Source of the DNA: Astrocystis sublimbata
Lineage: Eukaryota > Ascomycota > Sordariomycetes > Xylariales > Xylariaceae
Assembly: GCA_022453515.1 (NCBI GenBank)
Contig: JAJNNY010000037.1
Span: 62,001-126,000 of the forward strand
Length of the DNA: 64,000 nucleotides
Direction of reading: 5' to 3'
Positions 45,576 to 49,537 of this stretch are shown here, piece by piece. The stretch's first letter is position 1; each line of letters begins with the position of its first letter. A model generated the notes under the pieces. It ran no database searches and was not told the DNA's origin. It saw only the letters and a program-made list of their open reading frames with translations. A program made the translations under genes and the position numbers.

Positions 45576-45582
45576 GCCGGAC

Positions 45583-45593
45583 TGGCGCAATGG
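45583..45593 (+). promoter_or_regulatory. RNA polymerase III A box of the tRNA gene
   Basis: TGGCGCAATGG matches the A-box consensus TRGYNNARNNG. It overlaps positions 8 to 19 of the tRNA. Confidence 0.85.
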
Positions 45594-45612
45594 TTAGCGC
45601 ATGCGACTTCTA

Positions 45613-45646
45613 TTGAGATAACCTACACTTGTCTCGTAGAAAGCTT
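45613..45646 (+). other. Canonical tRNA intron (after base 37)
   Basis: 34 nt between the anticodon loop A37 and base 38. It contains AGA, which could pair with the TCT anticodon as in normal pre-tRNA. It would be removed by the tRNA splicing endonuclease. Confidence 0.85.
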
Positions 45647-45662
45647 ATCGCAAGGCTGTGGG

Positions 45663-45711
45663 GTACGTCTCTATGAAATTTGGCCTATTATTCAAGACTA
45701 ACGAAACATAG
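45663..45711 (+). other. Spliceosomal-type intron inserted in the tRNA T arm (53/54)
   Basis: 49 nt with donor GTACGT, branch-site CTAAC at 45698-45702 (branch A 10 nt from the end) and 3' end CATAG. The donor is the same as in several mRNA introns of this window (CDC14, M28 peptidase, aldo/keto reductase, the hydrolase at 53.6 kb). The length is within the fungal mRNA intron range. Deleting it restores an exact 5-bp T stem and 7-nt T loop. Confidence 0.85.
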
Positions 45712-45720
45712 TTCGAGTCC
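45710..45720 (+). promoter_or_regulatory. Pol III B box, completed by the intron's own AG
   Basis: AGTTCGAGTCC against consensus GGTTCGANTCC, with one mismatch at the first base. The first two bases come from the intron's terminal AG, so the B box survives in the DNA in spite of the insertion. Confidence 0.8.
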
Positions 45721-45733
45721 CACGTTCGGTTCA

Positions 45734-45748
45734 TTTTTTGGCTTTTTT
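45734..45748 (+). terminator. Pol III terminator (T6, backup T6)
   Basis: Six T at 45734-45739 and six more at 45743-45748, directly after the tRNA 3' end. Confidence 0.85.
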
Positions 45749-48108: not shown

Positions 48109-49537
48109 ATGGCTTACAAGATTGTTAACAAGGATGTCAACGACATTGGCTACGGCTTGATGAGTAAGTCACTTCTCGATCGCCGACCACAGTCGTAGAT
48201 CAGAGCGCTGATACCATGTTCAGGTCTGCATATGCCTCGGGATCACCCTTTGTCTGACGATGATCGTATCGCAATGACCAAGGCGGCGGTTGATGCTGGA
48301 GCCAACTTCTTGAATGGCGGTGAATTCTACGGCCCGTCGCTACAGCAGAACTCATTGAGTCTTCTGAAACAATATTTCGAGAAGTACCCTGAAGATGCCA
48401 GCAAGTAAGCATGCCACAGCGTGGAAGTCGTGGACCTTGGTTACTTGCAGCCCTGGTCATATCAATTTATGCGTACATGGACTAATTAATCCGCTGCAGA
48501 GTGGTTGTCGGCATCAAAGGTGGTATGCGCATACCTCTCACCATCGATAACAACCCCGAGTACACCCGCGAGTCCATTGAGAACTGTCTGAAGCTCATCG
48601 GCGACAAGGGCAAGATCGATATGTGGGAAATGGCGAGACGCGCTACGCAAGAGGACTATATCAAGTCGCTTCGTGTCATCGACGAATATGTGAAGCAGGG
48701 GAAGATCGGCGGCGTGACCCTGAGCGAGGTGAATGCGAATACCATTCGTCAAGCTGCCAAGGTAGTCAAGGTCGTCGGTGTGGAGATAGAAATCTCGCTC
48801 TTCCACACCGACGCCATCCACAACGGCATCTGCGCTGCTTGTGCTGAGCTCGACATTCCCATCTTTGCCTATTCGCCACTTGGTGTAAGTTTTCGGCAGT
48901 CGCTTGGGTCAGTAATTCTCGTTCGTATACTCACAAGGTCTTTACAGAGGGGCTTTCTCACGGGCAAGGTACAAAAGCCTGAAGACCTATACCCACTCTT
49001 CAGACAATTCCCGCGTTTTCGGCAGGAAAATCTGGACACCAATATGAAGCTGGTCGAGAAGGTGAAAGAGTGGGCAGCAAAGAAAGGATGCACACCAGCT
49101 CAGTACGTCATATGTAACATCTACAGCAACCCATGTCTGCTTGTAGAATCGCCCACCCCCGTCCCCGTCCCCGTCTCCCATCCCAACACTTTACACACAC
49201 AGACACTCACACACACACACACACACACACACAAGAAAGGGAAGATAAAACTGATTCTGGCATGTGCAACGATCGCTAACTTGTTGTCACTACCAGGTTT
49301 TCGATCAATTGGCTAGTGGCACTTTCCAAGAGGCCTGGGATGCCAAAGATCATCCCGATCCCTGGTGCTGCCAGCCCGGAGCGCATCAAGGAGAATATCT
49401 TCAAAGTCGAGCTGACGGACGCGGATATGGACGAGGTTGACAAGTTCCTCAAAGAATTCAACCCCGTTGGTGATCGATTCAATGAGCAGTTCGCACAGAT
49501 GCTTGATTCCAATGCCACGACTGAGGTCACAGCGTAG
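48109..49537 (+). CDS. Aldo/keto reductase, pyridoxal reductase-like
   Basis: Five exons, 48109..48163, 48234..48414, 48500..48884, 48948..49102 and 49297..49537, close to 338 residues. Introns start GTAAGT, GTAAGC, GTAAGT and GTACGT and end CAG. The TIM-barrel landmarks are GYGLM at the start, the DAGANFLNGGEFYG block with catalytic Asp and Tyr, Lys in VVVGIKGG, YSPLGRGFLTGK, and the cofactor loop IPIPGAASPERIKEN. The motif set is that of the yeast Plr1/bacterial YakC branch, which reduces pyridoxal and other aldehydes using NADPH in the cytosol. In this branch a residue other than His can occupy the fourth tetrad position (here around DMWEMAR). The fourth intron carries a CA microsatellite. 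Confidence 0.93.
49208..49233. repeat. (CA)13 microsatellite in intron 4 of the aldo/keto reductase
   Basis: Uninterrupted CA tract within the 194-nt intron 49103..49296. It is preceded by CCCGTCCCCGT low-complexity sequence. Confidence 0.9.

Follow-up and report, generated by a model that had tools for sequence, protein, structure and literature searches.

A tRNA-Arg(UCU) gene of Astrocystis sublimbata with a probable spliceosomal intron in its T arm

Anatomy of the gene

The window analysed here is a stretch of 64,000 nt, bases 62001–126000 of contig C121 in the 42.6-Mb genome of Astrocystis sublimbata (Xylariaceae, Xylariales), and it contains a tRNA-Arg(UCU) gene of 156 nt on the plus strand. 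The gene is flanked by an amidohydrolase gene on the minus strand, which extends to 44766, and by a piece of an aldo-keto reductase gene on the plus strand, which begins at 48501; no listed open reading frame of at least 120 aa lies between the two. The features of the locus, numbered from the first base of the window, are the following:

45576–45731, plus strand: tRNA-Arg(UCU) gene with two introns and a 73-nt mature RNA (ARAGORN, Rfam tRNA model)
45576–45612, plus strand: exon a, with the acceptor 5' strand, D arm, anticodon stem 5' strand and anticodon TCT, up to base 37
45583–45594, plus strand: A box, TGGCGCAATGGT (assigned by consensus)
45613–45646, plus strand: intron 1, a canonical tRNA intron of 34 nt at 37/38
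45647–45662, plus strand: exon b, from base 38 to T-stem base 53
45663–45711, plus strand: intron 2, an mRNA-type (GT-AG) intron of 49 nt in the T arm, at 53/54
45663–45668, plus strand: 5' splice site, GTACGT
45698–45702, plus strand: branch site, CTAAC (within ACTAAC), whose branch A lies 10 nt before intron 2 ends
45709–45711, plus strand: 3' splice site, TAG, whose AG is the first downstream of the branch site
45711–45719, plus strand: B box, GTTCGAGTC in the DNA, restored by the final G of intron 2 (assigned by consensus)
45712–45731, plus strand: exon c, with the T loop, T stem 3' strand, acceptor 3' strand and base 73
45734–45748, plus strand: likely Pol III terminator, two T6 runs at 45734–45739 and 45743–45748

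The initial annotation had assembled a 73-nt tRNA-Arg(UCU) from this locus by removing two segments, and this assembly is exact to the base according to ARAGORN, folding and the Rfam tRNA model. ARAGORN likewise places the first segment, described there as the usual intron after base 37, at 45613–45646. The second, the 49-nt insert between T-stem base 53 and T-loop base 54, lies where it had been placed, with an ambiguity of one G at its boundary: the sequence can be read as GTGGG/GTACGT...CATAG/TTCGA or as GTGG/GGTACG...CATA/GTTCGA, and the tRNA is identical either way. When introns are allowed, ARAGORN reports a tRNA-Arg(tct) with a 34-nt intron once intron 2 is excised and a tRNA-Arg(tct) once both introns are excised, while neither the original DNA nor the DNA lacking intron 1 alone yields a tRNA. 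With both inserts present, the gene scores 31.4 bits with the Rfam tRNA model, whose gathering score is 29 (3-kb locus, lax filters). Scans of the whole window, with Rfam at default filters and with ARAGORN at bacterial settings, missed the gene, and tRNA finders can therefore overlook genes of this kind. The minimum-energy fold of the 73-nt mature RNA is a plain cloverleaf with a UCU anticodon, recognized as a tRNA by both ARAGORN and the Rfam tRNA model.

In the minimum-energy folds, TAGAA of intron 1 pairs with TTCTA of the anticodon loop. In canonical tRNA introns, base -3 of the intron usually pairs with base 32; at the 37/38 boundary of this gene, the C at -3 faces C32 and forms no pair, and the intact paralogue L011 has a G there. 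Both intact tRNA-Arg(UCU) sequences, that of the window gene and that of L011, carry a G1-U72 pair followed by U73, which is not the usual acceptor end of arginine tRNAs.

The T-arm insert and the mRNA introns of the genome

Intron 1 is of the same kind as the canonical eukaryotic tRNA intron at 37/38, whereas intron 2 differs from it in both place and type. The signals that the initial annotation had read in the insert, an initial GTACGT, a CTAAC 10 nt from the end and a terminal TAG, are all present. The fungal branch consensus RCTRAY, located 6–36 nt before the acceptor according to PMC5832005, fits ACTAAC and its distance to the end of the insert. At 49 nt, the insert lies at the short end of the range covered by the annotated introns (55–169 nt) and by candidates picked by motif at P450 loci, the shortest of which has 46 nt.

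Two matrices were used for scoring. The first was built from four annotated introns of 55, 76, 90 and 169 nt, located exactly in two genes with the species' own proteins; the second added five candidates of 46–101 nt from P450 loci, where 314 candidates before the motif filter gave seven distinct listed ones, and where one doubtful candidate (L081) and one duplicate of an annotated intron (L082) were left out. The four-intron matrix is the fairer one, because the five P450 candidates were chosen by their motifs. Intron 2 scored 14.1 with the four-intron and 16.9 with the nine-intron matrix, within the ranges obtained when each reference intron was left out in turn (10.8–15.0 and 13.1–21.2, respectively), and its 5' splice site thus resembles those of this genome.

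These introns, located with the species' own proteins, bear out the statement of the initial annotation that the insert has the profile of the genome's mRNA introns; motif counts in the window do not. GTACGT..CTAAC..TAG occurs once, with 0.2 expected, and GTANGT..CTAAC..YAG three times, with 1.7 expected and two of the three within this tRNA gene; a looser motif was seen 13 times against 10.9 expected. The window is hardly enriched in the bare motif, and the motif alone therefore proves little. Similarly, splice signals by themselves are no proof of an intron, because about 1% of the window's GT...AG segments within the length range considered (46–101 nt; 307 and 148 of 26,074 with the four-intron and nine-intron matrices) score at least as high as intron 2. 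The weight of the argument rests on the fit of the motif to the exact borders of the tRNA.

An insert of this kind might also arise by assembly error or merely resemble an intron by chance. When the 49 letters were shuffled, none of 200,000 shuffles gave GTANGT...CTRAC...YAG from end to end, and only 8 (four-intron matrix) or 3 (nine-intron matrix) began with GT, ended with AG and scored at least as high as intron 2; the signals moreover coincide exactly with the borders of the tRNA. A 35-nt piece of intron 2 matches its own site only in the genome at up to three mismatches, which argues against a mis-joined repeat, and we consider an artefact of either kind extremely improbable. The same search revealed no donor copy or introner family, at a stringency that a diverged donor would escape, and the 176-nt gene sequence matched itself alone in the genome. 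Other T-arm introns were sought with the pattern CTAAC...AGTTCGANTC, restricted to CTAAC branch sites, which gave 6 matches in the genome against 15 in the reversed control; among the 6, the window gene alone rebuilds a T stem and fits the tRNA model.

In archaea, the tRNA splicing endonuclease reads the bulge-helix-bulge (BHB) motif, a 4-bp helix between two 3-nt bulges. Intron 2 could be an ectopic intron of the tRNA type, cut by this endonuclease as proposed for Cyanidioschyzon merolae, and its position fits such a reading, since a C. merolae tRNA-Ile(UAU) intron lies at the identical position 53/54 (PMC9602550). The ectopic tRNA introns of C. merolae and of nucleomorphs also resemble the window gene in that a single tRNA gene may hold several of them (PMC9602550). 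The reviews PMC4090602 and PMC3978253 credit the C. merolae introns to BHB recognition by the tRNA endonuclease, and their processing is described as little known in PMC9602550. Intron 2, by contrast, lacks a BHB: the central helix pairs at 0/4 or 1/4 positions at the two equivalent boundaries, by a measure that is strict for eukaryotic introns in that intron 1, the control, reaches only 2/4. It carries instead every spliceosomal signal where one would be expected, a set that BHB introns can do without. Cleavage of intron 2 by the endonuclease is, on this evidence, very unlikely.

State of the gene and other tRNA-Arg(UCU) loci

All 21 stem pairs of the window gene are intact (21/21), and none is broken in L011 either. 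The two mature sequences are identical at 54 of 73 bases; between them, 12 pairs are unchanged, 2 are changed on one side and 7 show compensated double changes, including the T-stem pairs 50-64 and 52-62, which flank intron 2. The promoter elements and the terminator are also in place. TGGCGCAATGGT and GTTCGAGTC, which we take to be the A box and the B box, were assigned by the box consensus, and no run of four T, sought as a Pol III stop, occurs inside the gene. The B box straddles the 3' end of intron 2, whose last G replaces base 53, so that the box is whole in the DNA. This spotless gene structure argues for use of the gene, as far as its sequence can tell.

In predicted folds, the mean pair probability of the T stem is 0.34 with intron 2 and 1.0 without it, and the branch site is partly paired in the precursor (0.62). 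After removal of intron 2, the anticodon stem has a competing alternative (0.47), and the corresponding minimum-energy fold lacks this stem.

Pattern searches of the 42.6-Mb assembly recovered three UCU loci: the window gene, L011 and L012. L011, on contig C105, is an intact tRNA-Arg(UCU) gene with an uninterrupted T arm and a 13-nt intron (53.0 bits; ARAGORN). L012, on the minus strand of contig C138 (match 74103–74132), resembles a tRNA-Arg(UCU) gene at 36.0 bits and is reported as no tRNA by ARAGORN; its stems are paired, a 2-nt deletion in the T loop also breaks the B box, and it is probably a recently damaged copy.

Three more pattern searches gave no further recognizable UCU gene. One had 12 matches against 21 in the reversed control and recovered L011 alone among the three loci; one with a D loop longer by one base had 15 against 7, and another had 8 against 20, and these two recovered none of the three. 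One of the pattern searches that recovered the three loci had also given 19 matches with two mismatches, six of them ending in TTCTA (judged by the letters of the matches), and none of the 19 recurs in the further searches with 12 and 8 matches. A UCU gene combining a 37/38 intron longer than about 30 nt with an unusual A box could escape these patterns. ARAGORN found 22 tRNAs in 81 loci of the genome, with UCU anticodons in L011 and L019 only, which are one and the same place; the Rfam tRNA search of the genome scored 63 of 1291 candidates. Beyond this genome, the 5' half of the gene had no match in the bacterial and archaeal genomes scanned, and 15 matches in viral contigs, all to arginine tRNAs with an uninterrupted T arm.

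According to the initial annotation, its reading would fall if uninterrupted tRNA-Arg(UCU) genes supplied the cell while this locus gave no spliced RNA, and it had asked how many intact copies there are. The existence of L011 supplies one half of this. AGA accounts for 9 of 1251 codons, and for 9 of 68 arginine codons, in three genes of the window. L011 could serve the cell, so that the window gene may be dispensable and the need for it is doubtful.

The window gene might then be a recently killed copy, into which an intron or an intron-like insert has landed, which makes no tRNA and for which L011 stands in. The intact synonymous gene on C105 and the damaged third copy on C138 fit this explanation, as does the statement, in PMC4090602, that inserts in the D or T arm of eukaryotic tRNA genes mostly affect a single member of a large synonymous set and are presumed to mark pseudogenes. 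The genome, however, offers three UCU loci by pattern searches rather than many synonymous copies. Neither stems nor promoter show decay, with 0/21 pairs broken and the A box, the B box, the T runs and the pairing between the anticodon loop and intron 1 all whole, although a gene that died very recently would not yet show any. Besides, the splice signals lie at both exact ends of the insert, which should therefore be removable, and an intron need not kill its gene. We regard a killed copy as unlikely, though it is the alternative that deserves most attention.

mRNA-type introns in Pol III genes

Spliceosomal introns are regarded as a matter of Pol II, with U6 and U3 as exceptions, while tRNA introns are removed by a protein endonuclease. 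Two U6 genes of the same genome are interrupted by 57-nt GT-AG introns, which lie between ...AGAAGAT and TAGCATGG...:

G000:C1:11589–11744, minus strand: U6 gene (L095) with a 57-nt GT-AG intron
G000:C130:152546–152701, minus strand: U6 gene (L096) with a 57-nt GT-AG intron

The branch sites of these introns are TTGAC or CTAAC, and their branch A lies 12 nt before the intron end. Both introns contain a B box, GTTCGAACC; such a box arises by chance in 1.3% of shuffles of the C1 U6 intron. Because two U6 genes carry mRNA-type introns, which are presumably spliced here, the spliceosome very likely handles a Pol III RNA in this fungus already.

The splice signals, the length of the insert, the lack of a BHB, a T stem that is perfect and covaries, and the U6 introns favour the spliceosomal intron that the initial annotation had proposed. 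We put at roughly 72% the probability that the locus is a Pol III tRNA-Arg(UCU) gene holding a true U2-type spliceosomal intron at 53/54 besides its intron at 37/38.

The transcription, splicing, order of steps and origin that we infer for such a gene would be as follows. Pol III would transcribe the full gene from the A box and from the B box rebuilt by the last G of intron 2, and would stop at the T runs. The spliceosome would then excise the 49-nt intron in the nucleus, as the first step, and only after this excision would the T arm form. The tRNA splicing endonuclease would remove the 34-nt intron, at a place in the order that we can only guess. RNase P, tRNase Z and the export receptor all depend on the T arm; because the T stem forms poorly in the presence of intron 2, end processing and export should await the spliceosome. 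The intron may have arisen by insertion, for example by reverse splicing, which is likewise a guess. With somewhat less assurance than the identity of the intron, we slightly favour the view that the gene gives a working tRNA, for whose maturation the spliceosome and the tRNA endonuclease would both be required and would act in a set order, and that Pol III genes of this lineage (two U6 copies and a tRNA) would accept mRNA introns provided that a B box is carried or rebuilt.

The closest parallel is found in the U6 snRNA introns of fungi, in Schizosaccharomyces and others, where a GT-AG intron likewise interrupts a Pol III gene. The U6 intron is spliced in fission yeast, and Frendewey is said to have linked it to a B box in 1990. 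U6 is itself part of the spliceosome, which makes reverse splicing at the catalytic site an easy origin for its introns, whereas a tRNA is not. Moreover, the B box of the window gene is rebuilt at the border between exon and intron and does not lie whole inside the intron, and the gene has a second intron of the endonuclease type. Fungal U3 snoRNA introns, as described in PMC5832005, resemble intron 2 in being ordinary GT-AG introns with an RCTRAC branch in a small structured RNA. That paper (2017) presents U3 and U6 as the only small structured RNAs in which introns are known to be frequent, passes over ordinary tRNA introns and does not list tRNA.

Searches of open-licence literature turned up no tRNA gene described as having a spliceosomal intron. 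As far as this literature goes, mRNA-type introns in Pol III genes are known, and what is new is a tRNA as the host. If the spliceosomal reading is correct and the tRNA works, the window gene would be the first tRNA gene with a spliceosomal intron, and the cell would rely on splicing for an arginine tRNA, tying the translation of AGA codons to splicing capacity. The spliceosome would be acting on a tRNA precursor, which has neither cap nor poly(A) tail, and intron gain would have been caught in a gene without ties to the spliceosome.

Two further U6 matches were found in the genome: one on C135, of 98 nt, seems uninterrupted by its length, and one on C143 is under the family cut-off. Some matches come in pairs, identical in sequence or in score, from the two strands of the same contig, at C29:8523/10433, C35:9337/10792 and C130:283819/297378, and the same is seen on C171 at 12419, 14486, 40835 and 42900, a pattern suggestive of inverted duplications, be it of the genome or of the assembly.
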